The notes under the pieces are model-generated. The model saw nothing but the letters and a program-made list of their open reading frames with translations, was not told the DNA's origin and did no database searches. The position numbers were made by a program, and so were the translations under genes. From Pseudomonas fluorescens (lineage in GTDB: Bacteria > Pseudomonadota > Gammaproteobacteria > Pseudomonadales > Pseudomonadaceae), in NCBI RefSeq assembly GCF_902498065.1, contig NZ_CABVIR010000001.1:558001-622000 (forward strand): DNA of 64,000 nt, in the 5' to 3' direction. This document shows positions 16,687 to 57,732 of the stretch, in pieces. Within the stretch, counting starts at the first letter, position 1. Each line of letters begins with the position of its first letter.

Positions 16687-17178
16687 TCAGGTCCTTTTGT
16701 CATCGCCCGGTTCGCCACCGACGTGCACGCCGTGGTCATCGCCAACTTCACCGGAGCGATGAACGCCGTGGTCATCGCCCATTTCACCGGAACGATGAAC
16801 CCCATGATCGTCCCCCGGTTCTGCGTGATTGCTGTGTCGCCCTGAGTCGGCTGAATGCCCGGAACGCCCCGAGCCATGGTCGTTGCCACTGTGATCGCTG
16901 CCATTACCGCCGTGGCCGCTGCCGCTGCTACCGTGACCACCGCCATCGCCGCCATGACCACTGCCGCTGCCACCGTGACCACCACCATTACCGCCACTGC
17001 CTCCGCCACCACCGCCACCGTGACCACCGCCGCCTCCACCGCTACCACCACCGCCTCCACTCCCTCCATCCTTGGCTTGAGCGCTCGATACACCGGACAG
17101 GCTGTCCGGAATCAATACGGTCGACGCCGACAACACTGCGCCAATCGCTACTGCCAGTAAAAGCTTGTTGATGTGCAT
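16687..17178 (-). CDS. Secreted Gly/His/Asp-rich protein
   Basis: 163 residues. A signal peptide (MHINKLLLAVAIGAVLSAST) precedes a low-complexity Gly/Ser/His/Asn stretch made of GGHGG-like units. The end has three copies of a 12-residue repeat with GDDHGVH. Most of the mature chain is Gly, His, Asp and Ser, which suggests an unfolded, metal-binding extracellular protein; this is inference. It is downstream of gspG and gspF on the same strand, 150 bp after gspF, so it may be a co-expressed substrate or accessory of the secretion system. Confidence 0.7.
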   Translation of the reverse strand: MHINKLLLAVAIGAVLSASTVLIPDSLSGVSSAQAKDGGSGGGGGSGGGGGGHGGGGGGGSGGNGGGHGGSGSGHGGDGGGHGSSGSGHGGNGSDHSGNDHGSGRSGHSADSGRHSNHAEPGDDHGVHRSGEMGDDHGVHRSGEVGDDHGVHVGGEPGDDKRT

Positions 17179-17327
17179 GCCGTTCTCCGTCTTCTTATTC
17201 AGATTTGAACGTTGATAAACACTGCAACGTGCTGCTCGATTCAGTCGGTGAACACCGCTACGTCCTGATTTATTCAGTTGCCACCTCGATGAGCGATGAA
17301 CGGGGCAATTCGACCCTGTTTCAGGGG

Positions 17328-18515
17328 TCAGTGAATGCTCGAGGCCAGTTCGAATATCGGGATGTACATCAGGATCACGATGACCCCGATCAACAGGCCG
17401 ATGAAGGTCATGAGCAAGGGTTCAAACAACCGCACGAACCATTCGATCCAGCGGCTGATTTCTTCGTCATAGAAGTCGGCGCTGCGTTCCATCATCTGCC
17501 CGAGGTTGCCGGACTGCTCGCCGGCACGCAGCAAGCGCAGGGACACCGGGGTGACGAGATGATTGAGCTCCAGCGCCGCCGACAGCGATTGCCCCTCGCG
17601 CACCCGCTCGCAGGCCTGGTCCAGGCGCACACGCGAGGCGACGGTGAGCAGGCCACGGACCATGCCCATGGCGGTGACGAGGGGGATGCCGCCTTGCAGC
17701 AGGATCCCCAGCGAACGATAGAAGCGCGCCAGTTCGTACATGAAGATGCGCTGGTGGACTGCCGGAAGTTTTTCGATCACCCGGTCCACACTCCGGCGAA
17801 AGGCCGGTTGGCGCTGGAGGAAGGCGAGGGCGACGACGATCGCCACCAGGGCGCCGAAGAATTCGCCCTGATGAGCATGCAGGAACATCCCGCTGCTCAT
17901 CAGTACTTGCGACAACCACGGCAGGTTGTTGCCCAGCCCTTCGAACACCAGGCTGAAGCGCGGCACCACGTAACCCATCAAAAACAACACCACGCCACCG
18001 CCCACCACCAGCAACAGCATGGGGTAGATCGAAGCGCTGACGATCTTTTGTCGAACCTCGTCCATGCGTTGGCGATAGCTGACATAGCGACCCAGGGCAT
18101 CGCCCACTGCGCCGGTCTTCTCGCTGGACTGCACCAGTGCCACGTAGAGCGGCGGGAACACTGCCGACAACTGACCCAGTGCCTGGGAGAACGATTTGCC
18201 CTCATACAGCAGGCGCACCAGTTCACTCAAGGTTTTGCGGGCCTGTGGCGCGGTTTCTTTTTCCGCCAGGCTTTCCAGCGCATCGATCAATGGCAGGCCG
18301 GCGTTGAGCAGGGTGGTCAGTTCCTGGCTGAACAGCACCAGGTTGAACGTCTCGCGCTTTTGCAATCGCAATGCCCGCCAATGCCTTTCGGCTTGCAGGC
18401 TAACCACCCGCAGGCCCTTTTCTTCGACGATGCGTCGGGCTTCGCTGTCCCCTTGGGCCTCGACGGTCATCGAGACCACGCCGGTCTTGCCGACGGCCTT
18501 GAGATGAAAACGCAT
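17328..18515 (-). CDS. gspF: Type II secretion inner-membrane platform protein GspF
   Basis: 395 residues with the T2SSF architecture: a short N-terminal domain and two homologous helical domains. The pattern LFSQELTTLLNAGLPLIDALESL is repeated later as YELARFYRSLGILLQGGIPLVTAM, and the last helix is MTFIGLLIGVIVILMYIPIFE. GspF forms the platform that couples the GspE motor to pseudopilus assembly. It lies 12 bp downstream of gspG. No other gspF is seen with the gspE operon at 32.6 kb, so the two clusters probably complete each other. Confidence 0.93.
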   Translation of the reverse strand: MRFHLKAVGKTGVVSMTVEAQGDSEARRIVEEKGLRVVSLQAERHWRALRLQKRETFNLVLFSQELTTLLNAGLPLIDALESLAEKETAPQARKTLSELVRLLYEGKSFSQALGQLSAVFPPLYVALVQSSEKTGAVGDALGRYVSYRQRMDEVRQKIVSASIYPMLLLVVGGGVVLFLMGYVVPRFSLVFEGLGNNLPWLSQVLMSSGMFLHAHQGEFFGALVAIVVALAFLQRQPAFRRSVDRVIEKLPAVHQRIFMYELARFYRSLGILLQGGIPLVTAMGMVRGLLTVASRVRLDQACERVREGQSLSAALELNHLVTPVSLRLLRAGEQSGNLGQMMERSADFYDEEISRWIEWFVRLFEPLLMTFIGLLIGVIVILMYIPIFELASSIH

Positions 18516-18527: not shown

Positions 18528-18977
18528 TCACTGCCAACTGGTGACTTCGGCGTTTTCGCCTTCGCCGCCGGGTTGACCGTCCTTACCCATGGACAGCAGG
18601 TCGTATTCGCCGTTTTCACCAGGGTAGCGGTAGGTGTAATTGCGGCCCCACGGGTCCTGCGGCAATTTTTTCTGCAAGTACGGGCCGGTCCAGCGGGTTT
18701 CGTCGCTGGGCGCGGTGACCAGCGCCTGCAAACCCTGTTCGGTCGACGGGTAGTGGCCGACCTCCAGACGGTACAAATCCAGTGCTTTGCCCAGACCTTC
18801 GATTTGCGCCTTGGCCACCTTCACTTCGGAGCGGCCGAGCTGGGCGAAATATTTCGGCGCGACAATGCCGGCCAACAGCCCCAGCACCACCAGCACCACC
18901 AACAGTTCAAGCAACGTGAACCCGCGCTGAGCTCGCGGTGAGCCGTGACGCGGGGCACTACACAGACGCTGATTCAT
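18528..18977 (-). CDS. gspG: Major pseudopilin GspG
   Basis: 149 residues. An 18-residue basic leader ends in RG, followed by FTLLELLVVLVVLGLLAG, the type IV prepilin cleavage site and hydrophobic helix with Glu5. The body has the GspG signature YRLEVGHYPSTEQGLQALV and QDPWGRNYTYRYPGENGEYDLLSMGKDGQ, including the region of the structural calcium site. It assembles into the periplasmic pseudopilus of a type II secretion system. No prepilin peptidase is present in the window, so processing must rely on PilD elsewhere. Confidence 0.94.
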   Translation of the reverse strand: MNQRLCSAPRHGSPRAQRGFTLLELLVVLVVLGLLAGIVAPKYFAQLGRSEVKVAKAQIEGLGKALDLYRLEVGHYPSTEQGLQALVTAPSDETRWTGPYLQKKLPQDPWGRNYTYRYPGENGEYDLLSMGKDGQPGGEGENAEVTSWQ

Positions 18978-19020: not shown

Positions 19021-19150
19021 GCAATTGCCATGCTCACCACCTGACTTCCTTGCGAAACCCCTGAATCACGGGCCTCTGCGCTTCCGGCACAGTGCTTGCG
19101 TACGGCTGATTCACTACCGGCCATTGGGGCATTAGCCCCATTTTTCGGGG
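19021..19150 (-). promoter_or_regulatory. Possible sigma-54 promoter and G/C palindromes for gspGF (weak)
   Basis: On the minus strand GAGCATG-GCAA-TTGC (19035-19021) has the right -24/-12 spacing and a good -12 box, but one of the two key -24 guanines is changed. About 108 bp upstream lies CCCCATTTTTCGGGG (19136-19150), overlapping GGGGCATTAGCCCC (19126-19139). These resemble the palindromes found before the other sigma-54 promoters of the island. This is the weakest member of the set. Confidence 0.35.
19085..19099 (+). promoter_or_regulatory. Sigma-54-like promoter before the lytic transglycosylase gene
   Basis: CGGCACA-GTGC-TTGC fits the -24/-12 pattern TGGCAYR-N4-TTGC except at the first base, and ends 72 bp before the ATG at 19172. 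The G/C palindromes lie downstream rather than upstream of it, which is unusual for an activator site. Confidence 0.45.
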
Positions 19151-19171: not shown

Positions 19172-19780
19172 ATGAAAACACTCACCACTGGACTGCTCGG
19201 CTGTGTGCTGCTGGCAGGTACAGCTCAGGCCGATGTGTTCGTTTCCGTGGACAGCAAGGGCAGCTACGTTTTGTCCAATGTCCACCGTCCAGGTCGCACC
19301 TATGAACGGGTGATTCGCGAGCCCGAATCGTCACTGGTCAGCCTCGATCAACAGCCGCAGATGATTGCCCGGCAGCCCTATGCCGAGCTGGTGTCGGCGG
19401 CCGCCACGGCCAATGAATTACCGGCGGCGCTGTTGCATGCAGTGATCCAGGCCGAGTCCGCCTACGACGCCCGCGCGCGGTCGGCCAAAGGGGCGGGAGG
19501 GCTGATGCAATTGATGCCCGACACCGCCCGCGAAATGGGCGTGACCAACGTCTACGACCCCAAGGCCAACATTCAAGGCGGAGCCAAATACCTCAAGCGC
19601 CTGATGACCCTGTTCGACAACGACATCGCCCTCGCCGTGGCGGCTTACAACGCCGGGCCGCAAGCGGTGCTGAGCCGTGGCGGGGTGATCCCGCCGTTCG
19701 CCGAAACCCAGCGTTATGTACCGAGCGTGTTGCGCCAATACCGCCGCTTGCAAGGCTTGGCCGTGGATGCGCCGTTGTGA
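19172..19780 (+). CDS. Exported lytic transglycosylase (SLT domain)
   Basis: 202 residues with a signal peptide (MKTLTTGLLGCVLLAGTAQA) and GGGGAGA before the ATG. The N-terminal 45 mature residues hold a DUF4124-like YxxxDxxGxxVxSN segment. The SLT domain follows: LLHAVIQAESAYDARARS with catalytic Glu95, GLMQLMPDTAREMGV and AVAAYNAGPQAVL. It cleaves peptidoglycan non-hydrolytically. Such enzymes often open the wall for envelope-spanning secretion machines. Here it is divergent from gspGF and upstream of mnxG, which supports that role. Confidence 0.9.
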   Translation: MKTLTTGLLGCVLLAGTAQADVFVSVDSKGSYVLSNVHRPGRTYERVIREPESSLVSLDQQPQMIARQPYAELVSAAATANELPAALLHAVIQAESAYDARARSAKGAGGLMQLMPDTAREMGVTNVYDPKANIQGGAKYLKRLMTLFDNDIALAVAAYNAGPQAVLSRGGVIPPFAETQRYVPSVLRQYRRLQGLAVDAPL

Positions 19781-19802: not shown

Positions 19803-19816
19803 CCCCAACAGTGGGG
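19803..19816. promoter_or_regulatory. CCCC-N6-GGGG palindrome, candidate MnxR site for mnxG
   Basis: CCCCAACAGTGGGG is a palindrome flanked by G and C. Its centre is about 105 bp upstream of the -24 element of the mnxG promoter, a normal distance for an enhancer-binding protein. Additional half-sites TGGGGAA follow at about 19839 and 19849. The link to MnxR is inference from its repetition upstream of the other promoters. Confidence 0.5.
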
Positions 19817-19914: not shown

Positions 19915-19929
19915 TGGCATGCGGATTGC
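19915..19929 (+). promoter_or_regulatory. Sigma-54 promoter of mnxG
   Basis: TGGCATG-CGGA-TTGC is an essentially perfect -24/-12 match, followed by T. It ends 57 bp before the mnxG ATG. Transcription from it would need an activator of the type encoded at 55916-57346. Confidence 0.8.
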
Positions 19930-19986
19930 TCAAGAGGATTTGTCGAGAATTATTCCCTGTGAGCACCCACAGCGAGGCCCGCGATC

Positions 19987-26002: not shown

Positions 26003-27955
26003 ATGAACAGGACCATTGGAATCGTCGGTTGTGCACTGGTTGTCGGGGTGGCGCTGATCTGGCTGGGTGTCTGGCGCACGATACCGCCGGACATGCTGAG
26101 CGAGGTGGCGCTGCCGGACACCTGGAGCGGTCAGACGCTGGAGCGTGACGGCGTGTCCGTAGCGTTGCAAGTGCGGCCATTGGCCGAGGATGGCGTGTTG
26201 CGCGAAGGCGAGTTTGCCGACGTGCTTTTCCGGGTCAGTGACAGCACGTCGGGCCAACCCCTTTCCGGGGTCAATCCCGGTGCCTGGCTGGACCCCGAAG
26301 CGGTCGCGGCCGACCAGGCCCAGGGCCGCGAACGCAGCTGCAAATCACGGGTCGGCGTATTCCTCAAATCGAGCATTGGTGCGCGACCGTTACTGGACCT
26401 CAACAGCTATTTCCTGCTGGTGATGAACCGTGATGCCAGCGTTTCGGTGGTCGACCCATCGGTCTCGGTGGGCGGCATCACCAGCACCATGGCGCGCATC
26501 GACCTCAAGCAGCCGCCGATGGATTGGGTCACCCCGAAGGACAACAAACGCGTGTTCGTCTCCATGCCCACCGCTGGCGAAGTGGCGGTGATCGACAGCG
26601 AGCAATTCAAGTTGATCGACTCGGTGGCGGCCGGTAGCCATCCGGTGCGCGTAGCGTTGCAACCGGACGAGCGCCTGCTGTGGGTCGGCAACAATGCGCC
26701 GAAGGCCGAAGCATCCGGGGTCACGGTGATCGACAGCCAAAGCCTGAAGCCGCTCAAACACCTGGCCACCGGCGCCGGCCATCACGAAATCGCCTTCAGC
26801 AAGGACAGCCGGTTTGCCTTCGTGACCAACCGCGACGACGGCACGCTGAGCATCATCGACATCGCCAGCCTGACCCTCAGCAAACAACTCAAGACCGGCA
26901 CGCGCCCTTTGTCGGTGGCGTACTCGCCACTGTCCCAGGCGGTGTATGTCGCCGACGGCAAGGACGGCACCGTGACCGTGGTCGATACCGCCAGCCTCGA
27001 CGTGCGCCGTGTGATCAAAATCAAACAGGGCCTGGGCCCGATGGGTTTCAGCGCCGATGGACGATTCGGCATCGTCCTCAACACCCTGGAAAACCAGGTG
27101 GCCGTGATCGACGCCGCCACCGACTCGCTGGTTCATGAACTGGACGTGTCCGCCGAGCCTTATCAAGTGGTGTTCACCAAGGCCTACGCCTACGTGCGCG
27201 GACTGGCTTCGGCCAAAGTCACGATGATCAACCTGTCGTCCCTCGGTGAAGGCCGCACGCCGATCAGCCAGGGCTTTGAAGCCGGGCCGCAGGCACCACG
27301 GCTGGCGGGTGATTTGCCGCTGGCGTCGAGCCTCGCGGTGTCGCGGGACGACAACGCGGTGTTCGTGGTCAACCCGGTGGACAACACCACTTATTTCTAT
27401 GCCGAAGGCATGAACGCGCCGATGTCCGGTTACCCCAATCGCGGGCAAGTGGCGCGGGCGGCGATGGTCATCGACCGCAGCCTGCGCGAAGTCGAGCCGG
27501 GGCTATACAGCGCGCGGATAAAACTGCCGCCGGCGGGGCGTTTCGACGTGGCGTTCCTGCTCAATCAACCGAACATCATCCATTGCTTCACGACGCTGGT
27601 TGAGCCCGATGGCCGCCTCGCCCAGCACCCCGGCGTGCCGACAGTCGAGTTCATGCTCGACAAAGCCACCGCCGCCCTCGGCAGTCCTTACACCGTGCGC
27701 TTTCGCATCGTTCAGGGCCAGCACAAAGCTCAGCGCAGCGGCGTCAAGGACGTTCAGGTGCGCTACTTCCGCGCGCCGACGTCGCGGGCGCAAACAGTCG
27801 CGGCCCTTGAGGTCGGTAACGGAATCTACGAAGCCCCAGTGACGCTCGACCAGAACGGCGCCTGGTACCTGCACGTGCGTGCGGCGTCCCTTGGCGCGAA
27901 TTTCGATGACAAGACCTTTGCCAGCGTTCGGGTCCTGCCCGGCGATGCCCGTTGA
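26003..27955 (+). CDS. Membrane-anchored YVTN-type beta-propeller protein
   Basis: 650 residues from ATG 26003 (GGGGAGAGG upstream). One N-terminal helix (IGIVGCALVVGVALIWLGVW) anchors it to the inner membrane, facing the periplasm. Residues about 150-450 hold repeated blades with the YVTN pattern, for example VTVIDSQSLKPLKHLATG, LSIIDIASLTLSKQL and VTVVDTASLDVRRV. The last 150 residues look like an immunoglobulin-type domain. Similar proteins occur with cytochrome or copper-enzyme clusters. Placement between mnxG and two SCO genes suggests a maturation or electron-transfer role; no catalytic residue is evident. Confidence 0.8.
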   Translation: MNRTIGIVGCALVVGVALIWLGVWRTIPPDMLSEVALPDTWSGQTLERDGVSVALQVRPLAEDGVLREGEFADVLFRVSDSTSGQPLSGVNPGAWLDPEAVAADQAQGRERSCKSRVGVFLKSSIGARPLLDLNSYFLLVMNRDASVSVVDPSVSVGGITSTMARIDLKQPPMDWVTPKDNKRVFVSMPTAGEVAVIDSEQFKLIDSVAAGSHPVRVALQPDERLLWVGNNAPKAEASGVTVIDSQSLKPLKHLATGAGHHEIAFSKDSRFAFVTNRDDGTLSIIDIASLTLSKQLKTGTRPLSVAYSPLSQAVYVADGKDGTVTVVDTASLDVRRVIKIKQGLGPMGFSADGRFGIVLNTLENQVAVIDAATDSLVHELDVSAEPYQVVFTKAYAYVRGLASAKVTMINLSSLGEGRTPISQGFEAGPQAPRLAGDLPLASSLAVSRDDNAVFVVNPVDNTTYFYAEGMNAPMSGYPNRGQVARAAMVIDRSLREVEPGLYSARIKLPPAGRFDVAFLLNQPNIIHCFTTLVEPDGRLAQHPGVPTVEFMLDKATAALGSPYTVRFRIVQGQHKAQRSGVKDVQVRYFRAPTSRAQTVAALEVGNGIYEAPVTLDQNGAWYLHVRAASLGANFDDKTFASVRVLPGDAR

Positions 27956-27968: not shown

Positions 27969-28625
27969 ATGAACCGATTCGCACACCGTGGACTGCTGAC
28001 GTTCTGCCTGTTGGCCGTCGGCATTGGGCAAGCCCTGGCGCACTCGGCGGATGAACACGCCGGGCACGACATGCCGGCCAAAAGCGCCCGTTCGGAAAGC
28101 GCCCAGGTCAAGTTCGCCGACGTCGCGCTGGTGGACCAGAACGGCAAACCGGTGCGTCTGGAACAGGACCTGGTGGCCAACAAAATCGTGGTCATGAGCT
28201 TCATCTACACCAGTTGCACCACGGTGTGCCCGGTGGTGTCGTCGATCATGGGCAAAGTGCAGAAACAGCTGGGCGCCCGGGTGGGCACCGAGGTGCAGTT
28301 GGTATCGATCAGCATCGACCCGCAGCGCGATGACGCCCAGCGCCTGAACGACTACGCGCGCAGCTTCCAGAACGGTCCGGGCTGGAGCTGGCTGACTGGC
28401 AGTTCGCAGTCCATCAATGCCACCCTCAAAGGCCTCGGCTCGTTTAGCGGTGACTTCAAAAATCATCAGCCGCTGATCCTCGTCGGCGACGGCAACAGTC
28501 GCCACTGGACGCGCTATTACGGCTTCACCGATCCGGCCGTGCTGACCCGTGAAGTGGAAAAACTCAGCGGCCAACGCAATGCCCACGCCAAACACACTGC
28601 CATCGCCATGGAGCAGCAGCCATGA
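27969..28625 (+). CDS. SCO1/SenC-family copper chaperone (first)
   Basis: 218 residues from ATG 27969 (GAGGAAA upstream). The signal peptide (LLTFCLLAVGIGQALA) is followed by HSADEHAGHDMPAK, a His-rich linker. A thioredoxin-like SCO domain holds the copper motif FIYTSCTTVCPVVSS (CxxxC) and SISIDPQRDDAQRLNDYA. The usual conserved distal His is replaced or shifted in LILVGDGNSRHW. SCO proteins deliver copper to binuclear or blue copper sites. The stop overlaps the next start by four bases, so the two SCO genes are co-translated and likely load MnxG. Confidence 0.9.
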   Translation: MNRFAHRGLLTFCLLAVGIGQALAHSADEHAGHDMPAKSARSESAQVKFADVALVDQNGKPVRLEQDLVANKIVVMSFIYTSCTTVCPVVSSIMGKVQKQLGARVGTEVQLVSISIDPQRDDAQRLNDYARSFQNGPGWSWLTGSSQSINATLKGLGSFSGDFKNHQPLILVGDGNSRHWTRYYGFTDPAVLTREVEKLSGQRNAHAKHTAIAMEQQP

Positions 28626-29242
28626 GAGCTGTCGACTGGATTGCCCTGAGTCTGTGCTTCTGGATTTTCAGCTCGATGGCCTTCGCTCATGAAGGGCACG
28701 AAGAACCCGCTCCGGCGCAGGTGGCTGCACCACCGGCGAGCGGCACGCGCGATGCGAAAACCTGGTTCACCGACACGCCGTTGCAGGACCAGAACGGCGA
28801 AACCCTGCGCTTCTACAGCGACGCACTACAAAACCGCGTGGTGCTGCTGAACGTGATTTTCACCAGTTGCAACGATGCCTGCCCGCTGATCACCCGCAAA
28901 CTCAAGGAAGTGCGTGAGTTGCTGGGCGACAAGGCGGACGGCATCACATTCATCTCCCTTACCAGTGATCCGCTGCGGGACACCCCGGCGGTACTCAAGG
29001 CTTACACCTTGAAGCAGGGCGTCGATGGGCCCCACTGGCTTTTTCTCACCGGCGACAAGGCACAAATGGACCTGGTGCTGGGGCGCATCGGCCAGATTGT
29101 GCCGACCCCCGAGCAACATTCAACGCAGCTGATTGTCGGTGACGTAGCCAACAAGCGCTGGAGCAAAATCCGTCCGGATGCCCCGGCTGCCGCCATTGCC
29201 CAGCGCTTGCAGTTGCTGACAATGCCTGTGGCCGGTCGCTGA
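28622..29242 (+). CDS. SCO1/SenC-family copper chaperone (second)
   Basis: 206 residues. Signal peptide (IALSLCFWIFSSMAFA) then HEGHEEPAPAQ, again His-bearing. The copper motif is FTSCNDACPLITRKL, and LTSDPLRDTPAVLKAY is family-typical. HSTQLIVGD supplies a candidate third copper ligand. It is distinct from the preceding SCO protein (low identity by eye outside the motifs), so the two may have different partners, for example one copper donor and one thiol reductase. It is translationally coupled to the upstream gene. Confidence 0.9.
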   Translation: MRAVDWIALSLCFWIFSSMAFAHEGHEEPAPAQVAAPPASGTRDAKTWFTDTPLQDQNGETLRFYSDALQNRVVLLNVIFTSCNDACPLITRKLKEVRELLGDKADGITFISLTSDPLRDTPAVLKAYTLKQGVDGPHWLFLTGDKAQMDLVLGRIGQIVPTPEQHSTQLIVGDVANKRWSKIRPDAPAAAIAQRLQLLTMPVAGR

Positions 29243-31778: not shown

Positions 31779-31834
31779 CCCCAATAGTGGGGAAAAGCTT
31801 CAGGGCAGATCCGTGTGCGTCCCCGCCTTTGGGG
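31779..31834. promoter_or_regulatory. Two CCCC-N6-GGGG palindromes, candidate MnxR sites
   Basis: CCCCAATAGTGGGG (31779-31792) and CCCCGCCTTTGGGG (31821-31834) lie about 124 and 82 bp upstream of the -24 element at 31910. The first is nearly identical to the site before mnxG. Confidence 0.5.
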
Positions 31835-31924: not shown

Positions 31925-31992
31925 GTTAGCCTCAGTAAGGCGCGCACTCTGCCAGGTTCGGAAATCGGACCTGCGGTTTCAAGGAGTCCACC

Positions 31993-42532: not shown

Positions 42533-42862
42533 ATGCCAAAACCAACCCCAAATCCCCCCGAATCAGACACCAAAAGCAACCCCACCAACCCTGCTTCCAA
42601 CCTCCACCTGAAACCCACCCTCCTAAAATCCTGCGCTCCCCACAATCCCAGCAACATGTTTTTCATCGCCCCGGATATCGACACCGAAAGCCTGTTGGCC
42701 CACGCCTGTGAGTCACTGGCGTCGGCGAGTGTCATGGCCAGTGATTTCGCGGTGTTTCTGGACGGGCCGCAGCGCAGTCTGTTGTTGGGCATCCAGCAGG
42801 TGATCATGCTGGCGGATCTGGCGGTGAATCGGGCGCTGGATAACCTTGATCCGCAGGAGTAG
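42533..42862 (+). CDS. DUF6124 family small protein (second copy)
   Basis: 109 residues, ATG 42533, with AAGGAGC upstream. It shares MFFIAPDIDTESLLAHACES-type, LASASVMASDF and LLGIQQVIMLADLAVNRALD segments with the 1895-2206 product, and ends the same way (DPQE). The N-terminal third differs and is rich in Pro, Asn and Lys. It has its own structured leader and terminator. Function unknown. Confidence 0.78.
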   Translation: MPKPTPNPPESDTKSNPTNPASNLHLKPTLLKSCAPHNPSNMFFIAPDIDTESLLAHACESLASASVMASDFAVFLDGPQRSLLLGIQQVIMLADLAVNRALDNLDPQE

Positions 42863-47222: not shown

Positions 47223-47257
47223 GATGCCTCCTGATGCGGATCTGGGCATGAGAGCGT

Positions 47258-48604
47258 TCATTGCACGATGACCACTTCTTCGGTATCGGTGCCGCCATTG
47301 GATGACGTCACCCGAACCTTGGCCGGTGGAATCGGCGAGATGCCGGTCGACAGGGTTTTCTCTGCGCCGTTGCCACTGAGGGCGCCGATGGCGACACCGG
47401 TCCCGGAGGTGACGGTGAGTACCGGTGGCGAGGTTTCGTCGCTGGTCGAAGCCACGACCGTGATTTGCCCGCTGCTCAGGCTGTACTCGGCCCGTGAAAT
47501 CACCACCAGGTCGGTCAGCGGCATGGTCAAGGAAGTCGGCGTGCTGCTGGGGATGGCCAGATGGTTGTCGGCCGTCACCAGCAAGTTGCTCGGCAATGTC
47601 GGGTTAGTGGCTGACTGGGCGTACCAGTGGCCGGTGGTGTTGGCCTCGGTCAGGTTCAGCACCGGACTGTTGCTGTCCAGAGTCACAGTGGCCGGTGGTG
47701 GCGGAGCCAGGACGAAGACATCCTGCTGGGCCACGGGCGCGCTGCTGCCGGCCTTGCGCGAGTAAGTGCTGCGTTCGGCAATAATCGGGGTGGGTCGAAC
47801 CACCGTCGAAAGCTTGCCGGAGATGGCCATTACCGTTGTACGCAAGTCCAGCCCGCCAGGTCCCTCAATGCGGATGTAGTTGGTGTTGAAAGGGCTGCCG
47901 GTAAACGCTTCTTCCAGGTTTGGATCACCGACGAATCTGTCGGCGGAACCCGTGACCGGGTTGGTCTCGGTGTAGGGGCCGTTGACGCTGCGCAGGAAAG
48001 GGCCGAGGTCACTTTTGAGCGCGCCGTCATAGGTTTTCGGCGAGCCGATGCCGATGTCCCGGGTCATGTTGATCGCGCGACCACCGGGGGTATCGACATT
48101 GAAGACATCGACGCCGTAGGGATGGGTGATCACATAGGTGCCAGCGGTGGGCACGTCGACCCGAATACGGATACGGCCAAAACTGACCTGGTCGCCTTCG
48201 ACCGGATCTCCAGCGGCGAAGGCTGCTTCGACGGCGCTGACGTAGGTCAGGTCGATGCCCCTTGCTGCGTCGACAATGGATCCGTCACCGGTGAACCAGA
48301 ACGCTTCATCGGGAAAGTTGGTCGGGAAAACGATGGGCTGTGTGTCGTCGAAAATGCCGGGGTTCGGATTCAAGAGGCACATGTAGGACGGCGCACCGGG
48401 CGCGCTTGGAACCCTGGAGCTGACAGCCTTGGACAGGCACAAGTCGAGGGTTCGACCGTGGGAGTCCTGATACCAGGAAGCGAAATTGCCGTTGGCGGGA
48501 ACGTAGGGGCCCGGATCGACAGCAAACAGCGCTGCCTGGGCGACGCCTTGGGCCAGAGCGGAAACGACCAGGGCGATCGCGGTTTTGGACAGTAAAGGGT
48601 GCAT
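47258..48604 (-). CDS. Secreted protein, shorter paralogue of the adhesin-like protein
   Basis: 448 residues from MHPLLSK (ATG at 48604). Signal peptide (TAIALVVSALAQGVAQA), then the conserved domain shared with the neighbour: SWYQDSHGRTLDLCLSKAVS, YMCLLNPNPGIFDDTQPIVF and VNGPYTETNPVTGSADRFVG. Four Cys are shared with the paralogue and may form disulfides. It lacks the Ig-like repeats. It is the first gene after a sigma-54 promoter on the minus strand and precedes its paralogue by 35 bp, then csgB and csgA. No known family recognised. Confidence 0.72.
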   Translation of the reverse strand: MHPLLSKTAIALVVSALAQGVAQAALFAVDPGPYVPANGNFASWYQDSHGRTLDLCLSKAVSSRVPSAPGAPSYMCLLNPNPGIFDDTQPIVFPTNFPDEAFWFTGDGSIVDAARGIDLTYVSAVEAAFAAGDPVEGDQVSFGRIRIRVDVPTAGTYVITHPYGVDVFNVDTPGGRAINMTRDIGIGSPKTYDGALKSDLGPFLRSVNGPYTETNPVTGSADRFVGDPNLEEAFTGSPFNTNYIRIEGPGGLDLRTTVMAISGKLSTVVRPTPIIAERSTYSRKAGSSAPVAQQDVFVLAPPPPATVTLDSNSPVLNLTEANTTGHWYAQSATNPTLPSNLLVTADNHLAIPSSTPTSLTMPLTDLVVISRAEYSLSSGQITVVASTSDETSPPVLTVTSGTGVAIGALSGNGAEKTLSTGISPIPPAKVRVTSSNGGTDTEEVVIVQ

Positions 48605-48663
48605 GAGTATTCCCTCTATCAGAGTACCTGTCCCGTAGGGATGGGTCAGTTGAGGGAGCTTCG

Positions 48664-48678
48664 GCAACTTCCATACCA
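48664..48678 (-). promoter_or_regulatory. Sigma-54 promoter of the secreted-protein/csgBA operon
   Basis: On the minus strand TGGTATG-GAAG-TTGC matches the -24/-12 consensus with correct spacing. It lies 60 bp upstream of the ATG at 48604. Confidence 0.7.
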
Positions 48679-48767: not shown

Positions 48768-48781
48768 CCCCAGCATTGGGG
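48768..48781. promoter_or_regulatory. CCCC-N6-GGGG palindrome, candidate MnxR site
   Basis: CCCCAGCATTGGGG is centred about 97 bp upstream of the -24 element at 48678. It lies in the divergent region shared with the histidine kinase gene, which also has many G-rich half-sites. Confidence 0.5.
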
Positions 48782-48885: not shown

Positions 48886-50334
48886 ATGAACATGCCTACG
48901 CAAACACTCCAGACCGACAACGGCGATATCCGCCTGAGCTCGCGCAAGCAGTCGTTCAATCTGCTGCGCTGGTTTTCGCTCATCAGCATGGCGGTGATCG
49001 GCACGGTGGCGGTGGCGCTGGGCGCGGTGTCCACGCGGTTCGTGATTACCGAAAGTGTGCAGCGCGATGCGTTGCTGACGTCGCAGTTCATTCAGGCGAT
49101 TGCCTCGGCCGAGGTACGCCATGTGTCGATTCCCAACGTGCGGACCATGGGTGAGTTGCTCGACCCGCGCAAGGACAGGGATTTTCCCGACGTCGATCCG
49201 CTGGCCCGCGCCAATGCCCGGGGCGAATTTCTCGACCATATCGAGCACCTGCCGGACGTGATCCTCGCCAACATCTATGCCCCCGATCGCATGGTGATCT
49301 GGTCGACCAACCCGGCGCTGATGGGCACGACGATCCATGCCGACGAAGATCTGGACCAGGCCTTCGAGTTAAAGACGCCGGTGTCGGCCAGTTATCACGA
49401 TGTGGACACGGCGCGCATGGAGCAAAAGTTCATCAAGCAGCCGGAGTACATCTTCATCGAAAACTACATCCCGCTGTTCGATGCCGACGGCAAGAATGTC
49501 ACGGCGATGGTGGAGATCTACAAGGAACCGAAGGATTTGATCGACCGCATGGAGCGCGGCCTGGTGCTGATCTGGCTGGCCACCGCGCTGGGCGGCGGGC
49601 TGATTTATCTGGGGCTGTACTGGATCGTGCGGAGGGCGGCAACTCTGCTGGCGGCGCAACAAAAGCAACTGATCACCAACGAAACCTTCGTCGCACTGGG
49701 CGAGATGTCGTCGGCGGTGGCCCACAGTTTGCGAAACCCGTTGGCGACCATTCGCTCCAGTGCGGAACTGGCGCTGGAGTTCGACAGCGGCGCGGCGCAC
49801 AAAAACATCAACGACATCATCGGTCAGGTCGATCGCATGTCGAAGTGGGTCAGGGAACTGCTGCAATCCTTGCGCCCGCTGCATGACGAGCCCGAACCGG
49901 TGAATCTGGTGGCGGCGTTGTACGACAGCCTCATGGCTTTCGAACAGCAGATCGCCAAGGCCAGGGTCCACGTAGTGTTCGAGCCAAAGGAAACGCCCAT
50001 GGTTCTGAGCCAACAGGTGCAGTTGTCGCAGATCCTCAACAGTTTGCTGGCCAATGCACTGGAAGCCATGGACAAGGGGGGCACGCTGGCCATCACCCTG
50101 GAGTCGACGGATGCCAGGGGCGTCAGCGTGGTGGTGAGCGACACCGGTAAAGGCATGACCGAGGAACAGCGCAACCTGGCCTTCCGCCCATTTTTTACCA
50201 CCAAGCAAGGCGGGCTGGGCGTCGGGTTAGTACTGGTCAAGCGGATCATGGAGCGTTGCGGCGGTTCGGTGAGCCTGGACAGTCGCGAAGGTGAGGGCAC
50301 GAGCGTGCGTCTGGCGTTTAAACGGGTTCCCTGA
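48886..50334 (+). CDS. mnxS1: Sensor histidine kinase, MnxS1-like
   Basis: 482 residues. Membrane helices at about 28-50 and 225-248 enclose a periplasmic sensor of 170 residues. The kinase core has the H-box EMSSAVAHSLRNPLATIRSS with His280, an N-box (NSLLANALEAMDKGG), VVSDTGKGMTEE and GGLGVGLVLVKRIMERCGG. It is a close paralogue of the product of 54451-55947, including the sensor (MGELLDPRKDRDFPDVDP versus MGEMLDPRHDNSYPDVDP). P. putida GB-1 needs two such kinases and MnxR for Mn(II) oxidation. Which copy corresponds to S1 or S2 is my guess; the signal is unknown. Confidence 0.78.
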   Translation: MNMPTQTLQTDNGDIRLSSRKQSFNLLRWFSLISMAVIGTVAVALGAVSTRFVITESVQRDALLTSQFIQAIASAEVRHVSIPNVRTMGELLDPRKDRDFPDVDPLARANARGEFLDHIEHLPDVILANIYAPDRMVIWSTNPALMGTTIHADEDLDQAFELKTPVSASYHDVDTARMEQKFIKQPEYIFIENYIPLFDADGKNVTAMVEIYKEPKDLIDRMERGLVLIWLATALGGGLIYLGLYWIVRRAATLLAAQQKQLITNETFVALGEMSSAVAHSLRNPLATIRSSAELALEFDSGAAHKNINDIIGQVDRMSKWVRELLQSLRPLHDEPEPVNLVAALYDSLMAFEQQIAKARVHVVFEPKETPMVLSQQVQLSQILNSLLANALEAMDKGGTLAITLESTDARGVSVVVSDTGKGMTEEQRNLAFRPFFTTKQGGLGVGLVLVKRIMERCGGSVSLDSREGEGTSVRLAFKRVP

Positions 50335-50461: not shown

Positions 50462-50476
50462 TGGCTGGCTCCTTGC
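50462..50476 (+). promoter_or_regulatory. Sigma-54 promoter of mcoA
   Basis: TGGCTGG-CTCC-TTGC, followed by AAAA, has both invariant dinucleotides and correct spacing. Its position rules out the upstream in-frame start at 50450 and favours ATG 50519. Confidence 0.72.
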
Positions 50477-50518
50477 AAAACCTCCCTCACCCCCTTCACG
50501 ACTTCGAGGCGGCTGGTG

Positions 50519-53322
<2,804 letters not shown>

Positions 53323-53326
<4 letters not shown>

Positions 53327-54354
53327 ACCGCAGGGGCGCCGACAGGTCACTTCACACGCCGCGCTCCCGCGCCCTGGGCATGCACCTGATTCTGGTACTG
53401 GTGACTTGTCTGCTGGCCAGTCAGGTGCTGCTCGCTCACGAAGGTGTGCTGTCGCCAAAGGAGTCGGCGACACCCTGGGGCGGCGACTATTTCCCCAACA
53501 CCCTGCTGACCGACCAGGACGGTCGGCAGGTGCATTTTTTTGATGACCTGATCAAGGGCAAAGTGGTGGTGATCAATTTCATCTTCACGTCCTGCAGCGA
53601 CTCCTGTCCGCTGGAAACTGCGCGCCTGCGTCAGGTGCAAAAGTTGTTGGGCGACAGGGTCGGCCAGGACATCTTCTTCTACTCGATCAGCATTGATCCC
53701 TTGAGCGATACACCCGAAGTGCTCAAAGCCTATTCCCAACGTTTCAAGGTCGGCCCGGGCTGGAAGTTTCTCACCGGGGAATTCGAAGCCGTCACTGACC
53801 TGCGCAAGAAACTCGGGCTGTTCATCGAAGGCGTCGACAACGGCCGCAACAAAGATCACAACCTGAGCCTGATCGTCGGCAACCAGGGCACGGGGCGCTG
53901 GATGAAAGCCTCACCCTTCGAAAACCCGTGGATCCTCGCCGATCAATTGGCCAACACCTTGCAAAACTGGAAACAGCCCAGCGTTGAAGAAAGCTACGCC
54001 AATGCGCCCGAGATCCGCCCGCCGAGCAATGGCGAAGAGTTGTTTCGCACCCGTTGTGCCTCGTGCCATAGCCTCGGGCCGCAAGACGGGCAGGGTATCG
54101 GCATGCGCAACATCGGGCCGGATCTGATCGGCGTAACCCGCCTGCGCGACCCCGCCTGGCTCAATCGCTGGATCCGCGAGCCGGACCGCATGCTGGCCGA
54201 AAAGGACCCGATCGCGGTGGAATTGTTTGAACGTTTTGACAAGATTTCGATGCCGAACCTGCGCCTGGATGAGAACGCGGCGCAGTCCATTGTGGGTTTT
54301 TTGCAGGAAGAAACCGATCGTCAGCAACCGTTGCAGGCGGCGCAGGTGCAATAG
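53323..54354 (+). CDS. SCO-type copper chaperone fused to cytochrome c
   Basis: 343 residues; the ATG overlaps the mcoA stop. Signal peptide or anchor (MHLILVLVTCLLASQVLLA), then HEGVLSPKE. An SCO domain follows with FIFTSCSDSCPLETARL, SISIDPLSDTPEVLKAYSQR and candidate His ligand in NKDHNLSLIVG. From about residue 235 there is a class I cytochrome c with CASCH and axial Met in DKISMPNLRL. Fusing copper delivery or thiol redox to a haem suggests that copper insertion into McoA is coupled to electron transfer. Confidence 0.88.
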
Positions 54355-54450: not shown

Positions 54451-55947
54451 ATGCCGATACTGGAACAACAAAAAGTACCTGCGCCGCCGAATACGCCGGC
54501 CGCAGAAAGCCCAGGCTGGCGTGGACGGTTCAACCTGCTGCGCTGGTTTTCCTTCGGCAGCTTTTTCATCATCGCCGCTGTCGCGCTGGGTTTGGGCTAC
54601 ATTTCCACGCGTTTCGTGGTCGAGGAGAGCATCGAGCGCGACTCCATGCTGACCGCACAGTTTATTCAGGCCATTGGCGACGCTGAAATTCGTCACGCGG
54701 GCATCACCCCGGCAAGAACCATGGGTGAAATGCTTGACCCACGCCATGACAATAGCTATCCCGACGTCGATCCGAAGTCCCGTGCGGCGGCCCGCATTGA
54801 GTTTCTCGATCATGTCGAACACCTGCCGGACTCCCTGTTGGCGGTGGTGTACGCACTGGATCGCACCGTGGTCTGGTCGACCAACCCGCAAATGATCGGC
54901 ATGCGTGTCGAAGGGGATGAGGAGCTGGACGAATCCTTTGAAATGAAGGAGCCGGTGTCCACCAGTTATCACCAGATCGACGACGAGCGGCCCGAACAGA
55001 TGTTGCTGCGCGAGCCCACGTATTTGTTCATCGAGAACTACATCCCGATGTTCAACGCCGACAAGAGCAAAGTGATCGCCATGGTCGAGGTCTACAAGGA
55101 GCCGGCGGACCTGGTGGAACGTATCCAGCGTGGCTTCAAGTCGATCTGGGTGGCGACCGTGCTGGGTGGTGCGGCCATCTACCTCGCGTTGTTCTGGATT
55201 GTGCGGCGCGCGGCCAAGTTGCTGGAGAGCCAGCAGAATCAGCTGATCGCCAACGAAACCTTTGTGGCACTGGGGGAAATGTCGTCGGCCGTGGCCCACA
55301 GCTTGCGCAACCCGCTGGCGAACATTCGCTCCAGCGCCGAACTGGCCCAGGACATTGCCAGTCAGAGCGCGCAGAAGAACATCGGCGACATCATCAATCA
55401 GGTCGATCGCATGTCGCGCTGGGTTCGCGAGTTGCTGGTGTCGTTGCGGCCGATGAGTGACGATTACGAAACCGTGGATCTGGTGCTGGCCATCGACGAC
55501 ACCTTGAGTGCCTTCGACGCGCTGATCAAACGTTCCAACGTCGAAGTCCGCTTTACGCCGCAGACCTGCCCGCCGGTTGTCAGCCAACAGGTGCTGCTCA
55601 CGCAAATTCTCAATAGCCTGTTTGCCAATGCCCTTGAAGCCATGCCCAAGGGCGGCGTGCTGAGCATCAACATCGAGTCGCCGCAGCCCGGCCACTTGCG
55701 CATGACCTTGAGTGATAGCGGCAAGGGCATGACCAAACAGCAACAGCAAATGGTCTTCAAACCGTTTTTCACCACCAAACAAGGCGGGTTGGGCGTTGGC
55801 CTGGCCCTGGTCAAAAGAATAATGGAGCGTTTTCAAGGTTCGGTCGAACTGACCAGCCAGGAGCAGGAAGGAACCCGCGTTTGTCTGAATTTCAAAGTGG
55901 CAACGGGAGGGGAATATGGGGTACAGCATTCTGCTGGTCGAGGATGA
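54451..55947 (+). CDS. mnxS2: Sensor histidine kinase, MnxS2-like
   Basis: 498 residues, same architecture as the 48886 kinase: helices at about 35-52 and 232-252 around a periplasmic sensor, H-box EMSSAVAHSLRNPLANIRSS with His283, NSLFANALEAMPKGG, LSDSGKGMTKQ and GGLGVGLALVKRIMERFQG. The first 20 residues are a Pro-rich cytoplasmic extension. It overlaps mnxR by 32 bp, so the pair is translationally coupled and the kinase is the probable partner of MnxR. Confidence 0.8.
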   Translation: MPILEQQKVPAPPNTPAAESPGWRGRFNLLRWFSFGSFFIIAAVALGLGYISTRFVVEESIERDSMLTAQFIQAIGDAEIRHAGITPARTMGEMLDPRHDNSYPDVDPKSRAAARIEFLDHVEHLPDSLLAVVYALDRTVVWSTNPQMIGMRVEGDEELDESFEMKEPVSTSYHQIDDERPEQMLLREPTYLFIENYIPMFNADKSKVIAMVEVYKEPADLVERIQRGFKSIWVATVLGGAAIYLALFWIVRRAAKLLESQQNQLIANETFVALGEMSSAVAHSLRNPLANIRSSAELAQDIASQSAQKNIGDIINQVDRMSRWVRELLVSLRPMSDDYETVDLVLAIDDTLSAFDALIKRSNVEVRFTPQTCPPVVSQQVLLTQILNSLFANALEAMPKGGVLSINIESPQPGHLRMTLSDSGKGMTKQQQQMVFKPFFTTKQGGLGVGLALVKRIMERFQGSVELTSQEQEGTRVCLNFKVATGGEYGVQHSAGRG

Positions 55948-57346
55948 CGAAATCCTCGCCGAGAATATTCAGACTTACCTGGAACGCAAAGACTTCGAGG
56001 TGACGGTCTGCCACTCGGCTGAAGATGCGCTGGAGCAATTGGGCACGTTCGCCCCTGATGTGGTGCTGACCGACAACTCGTTGCCGGGCATGAGTGGTCA
56101 CGATCTGATCCAGAAGCTGCGCATCAGCGCGCCGGACCTGAAAGTGATCATGATGACCGGCTACGGCAATGTCGAAGACGCCGTGGTGGCGATGAAAGAG
56201 GGCGCGTTCCATTACGTCACCAAACCGGTGGCGTTGCCCGAGCTCAAGCTGTTGCTGGACAAGGCCTTGGCCACCGACCGGATGGAGCGCACGTTGTCGT
56301 TCTATCAGGAGCGCGAAGCGCAGAAGTCGGGGGTGCAGGCGTTGATCGGCGAATCGGCGCCCATGCTTTATCTGAAAAACACCATCGGCCAGTTGCTCGA
56401 TGCCGAACGCCGGATGGCCAACACCGATTTGCCGCCCGTGCTGGTCGAAGGCGAGACTGGCACCGGCAAGGAGCTGGTGGCCCGAGCACTGCACTTCGAC
56501 GGCCCGCGCGCCAAGGGCCCGTTCATTGAATTCAACTGCGCATCGATCCCGTCCAATCTGGTGGAGTCGGAACTGTTCGGTCACGAGAAGGGTGCGTTCA
56601 CCGACGCCAAGGACCGTCGTGTCGGGCTGGTGGAAGCCGCCGATGGCGGCACGTTGTTTCTCGATGAAGTCGGTGAAATGGACCTGCTCCTGCAAGCCAA
56701 ACTGCTGAAGCTTCTGGAAGACCGGACCATTCGCCGGGTCGGTTCGGTGAAGGAGCGCAAAGTCGATTTGCGGGTGATCAGCGCCACCAATTGCAACCTT
56801 GAACAGATGGTCCAGCAGGGCAAGTTCCGCCGCGACCTGTTCTTCCGTTTGCGCATCATCTCGATCAAGGTCCCGCGCCTGTATGCCCGTGGCGAAGACA
56901 TCCTGCTGCTGGCCCGGCACTTCCTGGCGATCCACGGCAAACGCTATGGCAAGCCGAACCTGCATTTCAGCGATCAGGCCGAAGAATTGCTGTTGAACTA
57001 CAGCTGGCCGGGCAATGTGCGCGAACTGCGAAATATGCTTGAGCAAACCGTGTTGCTGGCCCAGGCCGACGCCATCGCTGCGCACCAGTTGAATGTCTGC
57101 CTGAGCCTGGTGGATGAACCACTGGCGATGTTGGAGGTGCAACAGCACAGCGAACCACGTCCGGTCTACAACGGCAGCGAGTCGATGAACCTGCCGGAAG
57201 TGGAACGCGACATGGTGCGCAAGATGCTCGACAAGACCGACTGGAACGTCACCAAGTCCGCACGTCTGCTGGGCCTGAGCCGCGACATGCTGCGTTACCG
57301 GATCGAAAAACTCGGCCTCGCCCGCCCGGACAAGCGTCAGTGGTAG
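55916..57346 (+). CDS. mnxR: Sigma-54-dependent response regulator, MnxR-like
   Basis: 476 residues (AGGGGAAT upstream of the ATG). Receiver domain with phospho-acceptor Asp53 (VVLTDNSLPGMSG) and Lys103. Central AAA+ domain: Walker A GETGTGKE at 179-186, GAFTDA at 226-231 (the sigma-54 contact loop, with Asp in place of the usual Gly), and a complete Walker B (GGTLFLDEVGEM). C-terminal Fis-type helix-turn-helix (WNVTKSARLLGLSRDMLRYR). It would activate the sigma-54 promoters found at mnxG, 31910, 48678 and mcoA. P. putida MnxR is the known regulator of Mn(II) oxidation. Confidence 0.85.
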   Translation: MGYSILLVEDDEILAENIQTYLERKDFEVTVCHSAEDALEQLGTFAPDVVLTDNSLPGMSGHDLIQKLRISAPDLKVIMMTGYGNVEDAVVAMKEGAFHYVTKPVALPELKLLLDKALATDRMERTLSFYQEREAQKSGVQALIGESAPMLYLKNTIGQLLDAERRMANTDLPPVLVEGETGTGKELVARALHFDGPRAKGPFIEFNCASIPSNLVESELFGHEKGAFTDAKDRRVGLVEAADGGTLFLDEVGEMDLLLQAKLLKLLEDRTIRRVGSVKERKVDLRVISATNCNLEQMVQQGKFRRDLFFRLRIISIKVPRLYARGEDILLLARHFLAIHGKRYGKPNLHFSDQAEELLLNYSWPGNVRELRNMLEQTVLLAQADAIAAHQLNVCLSLVDEPLAMLEVQQHSEPRPVYNGSESMNLPEVERDMVRKMLDKTDWNVTKSARLLGLSRDMLRYRIEKLGLARPDKRQW

Positions 57347-57732
57347 ACCGGCGTCGCCTGGTCCTGTCGACTGAGGCAGGCCAGCAGGCAGGTGGGGTCG
57401 ACGACTTCTTCGTTGACGTACACGCCGCGCTCCGGGTCATAGGAGCGGATAAACACCCGGACGGTGGCATCCGCGACCGTCGGCAATCGTGAGTCGGAAA
57501 ACACGTGTTCGCTGGAAATCGGGATGAAATCCTGCGGCGCGGTGGGAATGTACGAGCGCGGTGGCACGGTGCTCAGCGTCGGTGGAACGGGATGGGCGAA
57601 GGGCTGGTTTTCGCCGTAGTAGTTGAAGTCGCTGCTGTACTCGGACGGCGGCGTCAGGTTGTCGTCGGCGTGAACGCCCGTGGTGGCACTCAGGCAGAGG
57701 ATGAGCAACAGCGTCAGATCAGTGTGTTTCAT
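57337..57732 (-). CDS. Small exported protein of unknown function
   Basis: 131 residues from MKHTDLTL (ATG at 57732). Signal peptide (LTLLLILCLSATTGVHA) then a Pro-, Ser- and Tyr-rich chain (SSDFNYYGENQPFAHPVPPT, PPRSYIPTAPQDFIPI). The last part is a likely beta strand pair (ATVRVFIRSYDPERGVYVNE) with CLLAC. Its 3' end overlaps the mnxR 3' end tail to tail by 10 bp. It may be a surface protein of the Mn island, but nothing in its sequence proves that. Confidence 0.6.
   Translation of the reverse strand: MKHTDLTLLLILCLSATTGVHADDNLTPPSEYSSDFNYYGENQPFAHPVPPTLSTVPPRSYIPTAPQDFIPISSEHVFSDSRLPTVADATVRVFIRSYDPERGVYVNEEVVDPTCLLACLSRQDQATPVYH

Follow-up and report, generated by a model that had tools for sequence, protein, structure and literature searches.

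Why do bacteria oxidise manganese, and how does the oxide come to lie outside the cell? Relevant to these questions is an island of about 41 kb (positions 16687-57777) in a stretch of 64,000 nucleotides from the 6.2-Mb genome of Pseudomonas fluorescens (contig NZ_CABVIR010000001.1, positions 558,001 to 622,000), which we call the window. A first-pass annotation had reported that Mn-type multicopper oxidases, copper-loading proteins, a foldase, a hybrid type II secretion apparatus, complete csgBA and csgEFG curli genes, and the MnxS/MnxR regulators all lie in this island, and had proposed that the cell builds an extracellular amyloid scaffold on which MnO2 is deposited. Using Pfam and NCBIfam profile searches of the window's proteins along with sequence motifs, we found every one of these parts in the island (Table 1). 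We lean slightly toward the view that the island is a single Mn(II)-oxidation module, in which the sensor kinases MnxS1 and MnxS2 and the regulator MnxR are predicted to switch on the oxidase MnxG, the proteins that supply it, a secretion machine (Xcm), and curli that would hold both MnxG and the oxide.

Within the genus, MnxG and the island's type of curli are found in the same genomes. We searched 298 genomes of the genus for five proteins (MnxG, CsgB, CsgG, the Xcm secretin, and the second oxidase, McoA) and crossed the lists. MnxG was found in 96 genomes and CsgB matches in the identical 96, with neither occurring alone (in one genome, G137, csgB is in broken pieces). Island-type CsgG (at least 71% identity) was found in 95 genomes, and G137 is the only MnxG genome without it. 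No genome among the 298 had island-type CsgG or CsgB without MnxG, and none of the seven genomes that have only a second type of CsgG (50-53% identity) had MnxG. The Xcm secretin (at least 72% identity) was present in 102 genomes, namely all 96 with MnxG and six others, one of which has a contig-end fragment; a comparison of mnxG, curli, and the secretin across genomes, which the first-pass annotation had suggested as a check, thus came out in its favor in the genus. McoA was found in 89 genomes, 84 of them with MnxG. These counts exclude second-type CsgG matches, 12 genomes with only 33-36% secretins, and four partial or fragmentary McoA matches (G022, G185, G260, and G266); the partial McoA of G087 is included. 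The searches scored the best few candidates per genome, and single misses are possible.

These genes might be found together by linkage alone, as parts of a transferred or slowly decaying island. The strict tie is limited to a single genus. Its genomes are related, so that their counts are not independent and Fisher values overstate the evidence; the unlinked cases and the losses weigh more. Of the 87 genomes with MnxG and CsgG on one contig, 85 have the two no more than 25 kb apart; the distance is 179 kb in G102 and 221 kb in G200. For MnxG and CsgB, which are on one contig in 69 genomes, the distance is at most 60 kb in 56 of them and 104 kb to 1.8 Mb in the other 13. That csgB stays with mnxG at such distances argues against linkage, as does G277, where genes have been lost from two loci separated by 1.7 Mb and on either side of an Xcm that was retained. 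Furthermore, the window contains no tRNA gene, which is a common insertion site. We consider linkage alone to be very improbable.

The losses themselves are informative. In G277, G232, G246, and G021, mnxG is missing from its place after the SLT lytic transglycosylase gene, the PpiC foldase gene is absent, and the YVTN gene is either absent or reduced to about 98 codons; all four still have the first SCO gene, the cytochrome c-binding protein, and the Xcm genes (Xcm is seen as far as the contig runs, which is into the secretin in G021 and into the first pseudopilin in G232). No csg gene follows the last pseudopilin in G277. The contigs of the other three end before or just after that point, and the absence of csg genes comes from genome searches with CsgG and CsgB. 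At the other locus, all four genomes keep mnxS1, the SCO-cytochrome c gene, mnxS2, mnxR, and the genes for IgA and IgB, two secreted-looking proteins encoded ahead of csgBA; csgBA itself was not found. The island's mcoA is reduced to scraps in G232 and G246 and absent from G277 and G021, and other copies of mcoA are present elsewhere. A fifth genome, G163, still has Xcm, IgA/IgB, and an mcoA but has lost both mnxG and csgBA. Because its last pseudopilin gene is directly followed by scraps of csgE and csgG, we dropped the reading that it never had csgEFG. In a tree built from four Xcm proteins of 21 genomes, G277, G021, G232, and G246 lie beside G275, which keeps these genes, and G163 lies beside another keeper, G217. 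Since the lineages with absences are nested among keepers, the absences are losses. (G223 does not enter this argument, being 73% complete, with a secretin contig of 7.3 kb and no IgB match.)

The first-pass annotation had also placed the amyloid genes under the same promoters as the oxidase. What we found are promoters of the same type: a sigma-54-like site and a palindromic CCCCN6GGGG box are both conserved before mnxG, before the Xcm-csgEFG operon, and before IgB-IgA-csgBA. (A sigma-54-like site has GG and GC fixed and matches at 6 of 8 further positions.) At the three promoters, the box is about 75-120 bp further upstream than the sigma-54-like site. Of 80 named loci, 77 extend far enough upstream of mnxG, and 59 of these have the box in the 330 bp before the gene. 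The region before the Xcm-csgEFG operon is covered by 72 of the 80; all 72 have at least one box there, and 71 have two. The count of 15/15 sigma-54-like sites at this operon (Table 1) was taken after removing four response-regulator matches outside an Xcm context. By the same score, there was no conserved site before mnxS1, mnxS2, the YVTN gene, csgB, or csgA, and there was one match each for GspG, GspE, and the first SCO gene.

The boxes are concentrated at promoters. Across 767 kb of fetched loci, we found 81 boxes. Promoter windows, which make up 30 kb of this, hold 73 (Xcm 40, IgB 19, mnxG 12, mcoA 2, and none for SLT or GspG), and the other 737 kb hold 8. Of these eight, five are at sites of gene loss: four directly after SLT, where mnxG used to be, and one at a former mcoA. 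Two more are 324 and 428 bp upstream of mnxG, and the last is inside it. When the spacing between CCCC and GGGG was varied from 2 to 12, the counts were 17, 1, 1, 7, 81, 79, 37, 20, 12, 12, and 12; by our own reading, most matches at spacings of 7 to 9 are these sites again, with extended runs of C or G. A narrower form drawn from the three island copies, CCCCAAYNNTGGGG, matches the 6.2-Mb genome three times, each time at an island promoter; its reversed control has two, so the count is ordinary and the placement is notable. In genomes that lost curli, the box was kept at 10/10 of the Xcm and IgB promoters examined. For mcoA genes away from the island, 4/4 have the sigma-54-like site and 2/4 have the exact box. 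Three stand-alone curli loci (L049, L050, and L054; 20 kb each) contain no box. MnxR, which is a sigma-54 activator and has a Fis-type domain, would be the natural reader of the box. A shared MnxR regulon is a well-supported prediction for mnxG, Xcm-csgEFG, and IgB-IgA-csgBA, and less so for mcoA and SLT. This fits with PMC11930936, which reports Mn-dependent mnxG and mcoA promoters in P. putida GB-1, with predicted sites for sigma-54 and integration host factor.

Several observations weigh against the module. First, the window has 3 matches to the plain sigma-54 consensus versus 3.59 expected, 23 sites with a looser score of at least 6/8 versus about 18 expected, and 4 CCCCN6GGGG boxes versus 2.42 expected, which is no excess by count. 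Because these counts are near chance, the promoter case rests on place and conservation. A control pattern, GGGGN6CCCC, occurs 56 times in the same fetched loci (its two matches in the window are both also at island promoters). No box accompanies the sigma-54-like site before SLT. Upstream of mcoA, the box is degenerate: it is exact in only 2/12 regions, and not in the window. The small gene after mnxR has a sigma-54-like match in 2/2 cases, in different places. Second, G137, which lies beside the keeper G214, retains mnxG, Xcm, IgA/IgB, and mcoA, and its curli genes have decayed: csgE is cut short, csgF and csgG were not found, csgB is broken, and csgA is a scrap. Third, the tie loosens outside the genus. 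Among 119 genomes of the family, full-length MnxG is present in 17 besides the window's own genome (in two pieces in G338, and with one stop read through in five others), and G395 has a partial match only. Both CsgG and CsgB were found in 12/17 of these genomes, and not in G395; five lack both, including 3/3 of the g17 genomes and 2/4 of the g10 genomes with MnxG. Conversely, curli is present in 26/100 of the MnxG-negative genomes in the family (Fisher 6e-4). The Xcm secretin was found in 17/17 MnxG genomes, and also in G349, which lacks MnxG.

Overall, curli was lost three times, twice together with mnxG, and the constant partner of MnxG is Xcm; curli is a frequent partner only. The expected co-conservation of curli with mnxG is seen in the genus, where it persists despite physical separation and is mirrored by joint losses, and is not general outside it. 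G137 and five genomes outside the genus, which keep MnxG without curli, speak against a strict need for it. What seems most likely is that the genes form a shared regulon, with curli as a useful rather than essential aid to MnxG-type oxidation outside the cell.

Alternatively, curli might be a general stationary-phase or biofilm fibre that belongs to the MnxR regulon through a shared niche and has no part in MnO2 deposition. Common promoter elements require no physical link, and both G137 and the family genomes that have curli without MnxG fit this explanation. So does the title of PMC9765421, which ties c-di-GMP (cyclic di-GMP), biofilm formation, and Mn oxidation together; its main text does not mention curli, csg, or amyloid. 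However, curli in the genus tracks MnxG and not McoA: the 12 genomes with MnxG and no McoA match all have CsgB, and the five with McoA and no MnxG all lack it. Also, mnxG and csg were lost jointly in two lineages that retain an mcoA. We regard a fibre with no role in deposition as rather unlikely, if a serious contender.

A separate observation concerns mnxG itself. In one genome of another genus of the family, three full-length mnxG genes stand in tandem (G360:C22:376965-394966).

The Xcm machine has the GspE ATPase, the GspF protein, the secretin, and the GspG-type pseudopilins of a type II secretion system (Pfam T2SSE, T2SSF, Secretin, and T2SSG). We did not recognize a canonical GspC/GspL/GspM platform among its proteins, which gave only PilN-like and weak T2SSM_b matches and, for two proteins, no Pfam match; the secretin and the ATPase are under the NCBIfam GspD and GspE cut-offs. 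We file the machine as an Xcm-like hybrid of type II secretion and type IV pilus rather than as a canonical type II system. (The names of the PilM-like and PilP-like proteins are taken from position only and presume the usual order of type IV pilus clusters.) A 2003 study by de Vrind reportedly found that P. putida GB-1 needs a Gsp-related pathway to secrete its Mn-oxidising factor, and is said to have described an xcmS-xcmT1 pair and a pseudopilin gene, xcmX, beside csg homologues. We take the island's GspF and GspG to be xcmS and xcmT1. Both machines are Gsp-related; in the island, parts of this kind share one stretch with the two oxidases, csgBA, IgA/IgB, and the regulatory genes. The MshEN domain binds c-di-GMP in MshE, and the Xcm ATPase has a weak match to it (22.4 bits, under the cut-off of 23.1), which might be a post-translational gate.

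This arrangement raises another explanation: CsgEFG in the Xcm operon might export the Mn-oxidising factor, instead of or besides fibres, and the secretion phenotype of GB-1 transposon mutants in this operon, where an insertion is said to lie in xcmX, might partly reflect a polar loss of csgEFG. Island-type CsgG is within 25 kb of the Xcm secretin in 95/95 genomes, and the start of csgE overlaps the stop of the last pseudopilin gene (39917 versus 39920). On the other hand, CsgB accompanies CsgG in 95/95 genomes, and Xcm persists without csgEFG alongside mcoA in five genomes of the genus and alongside MnxG in five outside it. We consider export of the factor by CsgEFG to be improbable.

The curli genes themselves are readily identified by Pfam: CsgA and CsgB have curlin repeats, and CsgE, CsgF, and CsgG are above their cut-offs; the fibre is a prediction. 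These are also the components of type VIII curli in PMC3521004 (Dueholm 2012), and CsgA proteins of up to 529 amino acids with 22 repeats have been described elsewhere. The island differs from type VIII curli in that neither csgC nor csgD was recognized among the genes scanned, two secreted-looking proteins precede csgBA, csgEFG forms the tail of a type II secretion operon, and the promoter is of the sigma-54 type by its pattern. The stand-alone curli loci (L049, L050, and L054) have csgEFG with csgA/csgB-like genes, as the island does, and no match to mnxG, Xcm, or IgA/IgB in the 20 kb around each. Two of them are second loci of the type csgEFG-csgBA in genomes that also have the island one (G042 and G060; L049:7296-11832 and L050:7376-10806), and they have no palindrome.

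IgA and IgB open the csgBA operon. They are paralogues: the first 450 residues of IgA are 47.7% identical to IgB over 468 columns. IgB was found in 7/7 complete Xcm genomes searched (the window's own, the five that lost mnxG and curli, and G137) and in 0/7 genomes with second-type curli only. In G217, G277 (two), and G163, McoA homologues of about 1130 amino acids have, in one reading frame, a C-terminal Big_9/cadherin cassette that is 44-51% identical to residues 569-762 of IgA (L172:8408-11800, L169:14832-18221, L169:2916-6299, and L170:7267-10656). Gene fusions often mark partners. We infer from this fusion that IgA may be the tether that the island's McoA lacks. In two protein searches with IgB, the named organisms among the best 120 of 1527 and of 1646 matches were Pseudomonas, besides compost metagenomes, and many matches were nameless. 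The structural model of IgB has a mean pLDDT (predicted confidence) of 59.6, its listed structure matches have TM-scores of at most 0.20 over the query, and we claim no fold for it; the model of the IgA cassette (pLDDT 84.7) matched Ig, cadherin, and other beta-sandwich chains at TM-scores below 0.4.

Parts of the island have been described before. As far as the text of PMC11409713 is accessible, it gives the mnxG operon as mnxG, YVTN, SCO, SCO, cytochrome c-ABC binding, and SurA-like genes, and the order mnxS1-mcoA-SCO-mnxS2-mnxR in the P. psychrophila-like strains MS-1 and DSV-1. The island has the same operon and the same order, and we named its second oxidase McoA because its position between mnxS1 and the SCO gene matches these strains. 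Judging by their IMG gene numbers, MS-1 and DSV-1 could each hold 17 genes in the gap that separates the SurA-like gene from mnxS1, which is also the number in the island if a DUF6124 gene is not counted. Given this agreement, the same island is probably present, undescribed, in both strains. In GB-1, gene numbers in Table 4 of the same paper put mnxG, mnxSR, and mcoA apart, which agrees with the first-pass annotation's statement of separate oxidase loci, whereas the island has both oxidases in one stretch. The available excerpts of a review (PMC3056050) list csgEFG, csgAB, and homologues of the Mn genes in P. putida strains (W619 lacks one), unlinked, and cite the secretion pathway, which excerpts of PMC4509608 name Xcm. 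In the accessible part of PMC8218464, the mnxG operon and mnxS2/mnxR are reported from Pseudomonas sp. OF001, and curli and secretion go unmentioned. Beyond the review (PMC3056050), we found no report joining curli and Mn oxidation in the open-licence literature, to the extent that its text was available. The mnxG operon, the mnxS1-mcoA-SCO-mnxS2-mnxR order, and Xcm secretion in GB-1 were thus already known, and the adjacency of xcm and csg genes reportedly so; what is new is the co-occurrence of MnxG and CsgB, the joint losses, the shared promoter marks, and the fusion of McoA to an IgA-type cassette.

Table 1. Genes and predicted promoter elements of the island, by position in the window
Feature	Positions	Strand	Evidence or conservation
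Gly/Ser/His-rich secreted-looking protein	16687-17178	-	Signal-like N-terminus, no Pfam; adjoins GspF
GspF	17328-18515	-	Pfam T2SSF 3e-57
GspG pseudopilin	18528-18977	-	Pfam T2SSG 3e-44
Sigma-54-like site before SLT gene, CGGCACAGTGCTTGCG	19085-19100	+	13/13 orthologous upstream regions
SLT lytic transglycosylase	19172-19780	+	Pfam SLT 6e-27
Palindromic box before mnxG, CCCCAACAGTGGGG, candidate MnxR site	19803-19816	+	
Sigma-54-like promoter of mnxG, TGGCATGCGGATTGCT	19915-19930	+	15/15 and 76/77 named loci
MnxG, predicted Mn(II) multicopper oxidase, 1937 aa	19987-25800	+	NCBIfam NF041487 equivalog above cut-off
YVTN-type beta-propeller protein	26003-27955	+	Pfam Cytochrom_D1/YNCE; NCBIfam YVTN repeats
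SCO1/SenC copper chaperone a	27969-28625	+	Pfam SCO1-SenC 2e-20, CxxxC
SCO1/SenC copper chaperone b	28622-29242	+	Pfam SCO1-SenC 1e-16, CxxxC
Cytochrome c - periplasmic binding protein fusion	29251-30801	+	Pfam Cytochrom_C, Peripla_BP_6; CANCH
PpiC/SurA-type foldase	30817-31770	+	Pfam Rotamase 4.5e-24
Two boxes before Xcm-csgEFG operon, CCCCAATAGTGGGG, CCCCGCCTTTGGGG	31779-31834	+	
Sigma-54-like promoter of Xcm-csgEFG operon	31910-31925	+	15/15 true orthologues, 72/72 named loci
Response regulator, opens Xcm-csgEFG operon	31993-32526	+	Receiver domain only by Pfam (Response_reg 1.6e-21)
GspE/PilB-type ATPase	32611-34317	+	Pfam T2SSE 1.5e-125
Inner-membrane platform: PilM-like, PilN-like, PilO/GspM-like, PilP/GspC-like	34295-36701	+	Weak Pfam PilN, T2SSM_b; other two without match
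TPR-secretin (Xcm GspD)	36698-38551	+	Pfam Secretin 1.8e-40, STN, TPR
Three pseudopilin-type proteins	38548-39027, 39032-39406, 39381-39920	+	N_methyl in first two only
CsgE	39917-40306	+	Pfam 2.8e-35
CsgF	40303-40737	+	Pfam 1.2e-31
CsgG	40759-41631	+	Pfam 3.6e-81
CsgA, 481 aa, isoelectric point 4.05	42978-44423	-	Pfam Curlin_rpt 5e-22; 21 QxGxxN motifs
CsgB, start inferred at MKTSTAA	44452-44913	-	Pfam Curlin_rpt 2.6e-21, three stretches
IgA, secreted-looking	44973-47261	-	IgB-like part, two cadherin/Big_9 domains (Pfam Big_9 3e-24), C-terminal cassette
IgB, secreted-looking	47258-48601	-	No Pfam; paralogue of IgA N-terminal part
Sigma-54-like promoter of IgB-IgA-csgB-csgA operon, TGGTATGGAAGTTGCC	48663-48678	-	13/15
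Palindromic box before IgB-IgA-csgBA, CCCCAATGCTGGGG	48768-48781	-	CCCCN6GGGG box in 14/15 loci
MnxS1 sensor kinase	48886-50334	+	Pfam HisKA/HATPase_c
Sigma-54-like site before mcoA, TGGCTGGCTCCTTGCA	50462-50477	+	12/12
McoA multicopper oxidase, start inferred	50519-53326	+	Pfam Cu-oxidase_2 5e-9
SCO - cytochrome c fusion	53323-54354	+	Pfam SCO1-SenC 3e-20, Cytochrom_C; CSDSC, CASCH
MnxS2 sensor kinase	54451-55947	+	Pfam HisKA/HATPase_c
MnxR sigma-54-dependent response regulator	55916-57346	+	Pfam Sigma54_activat 4e-65, Response_reg, HTH_8
Small secreted-looking protein	57337-57777	-	No Pfam; orthologues beside mnxR in six fetched genomes

The genes fall into four groups. The first has SLT and mnxG with the published companions of mnxG (the YVTN propeller, two SCO proteins, the cytochrome c-binding protein, and PpiC). 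MnxG scores 3910.7 bits against NF041487 over residues 32-1928 (the cut-off is 3100), and it is a predicted Mn(II) oxidase from its sequence. The second group, whose gene ends mostly overlap or touch, runs from the response regulator through GspE, four platform proteins, the TPR-secretin, and three pseudopilins to csgE, csgF, and csgG; the third pseudopilin-type protein has a GFTYLGVLFLI-type N-terminus by eye and no N_methyl match. IgB, IgA, csgB, and csgA form the third group, on the opposite strand, and mnxS1, mcoA, the SCO-cytochrome c gene, mnxS2, and mnxR form the fourth. GspF and GspG are upstream, on the other strand. The Gly/Ser/His-rich protein next to GspF has matches in several relatives and is a candidate Xcm substrate. 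There are two DUF6124 proteins in the window, one in the gap between csgG and csgA (42533-42862) and one at 1895-2206, both on the + strand, and G275 also has a match after csgG. Elsewhere in the window, 3025-4005 (+) encodes a secreted-looking protein of many near-identical repeats with no Pfam match, and just beyond the island is a small gene pair (58731-59335, -), of which one is weakly Gp49-like and the other antitoxin-like by eye.

How might such a module work? MnxS and MnxR are needed for Mn oxidation in GB-1. In the island, the MnxS1 and MnxS2 kinases would sense Mn(II), and MnxR would bind the CCCC-N6-GGGG box and activate sigma-54 polymerase at sites that have the expected pattern. 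Judging from their families, MnxG and McoA would fold in the periplasm, where PpiC and the SCO and cytochrome c proteins would provide copper and redox steps. Xcm may then move the oxidase and/or IgA/IgB through the TPR-secretin; CsgG would export CsgB and CsgA, which would polymerise outside; IgA/IgB may tie the oxidase to the surface, as the McoA-cassette fusion suggests; and MnO2 is proposed to form around the fibres. A role for curli as a scaffold for MnO2 is plausible. More tentatively, and with limited credence on our part, the island could be a Mn(II)-responsive switch in which MnxR co-induces MnxG, Xcm, the tethering proteins, and an acidic curli that templates MnO2, with Pseudomonas dropping the amyloid along with MnxG. 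If curli does belong to the MnxR programme, then matrix and mineral would be one trait, and the biogenic Mn oxides of water treatment may be amyloid-templated.

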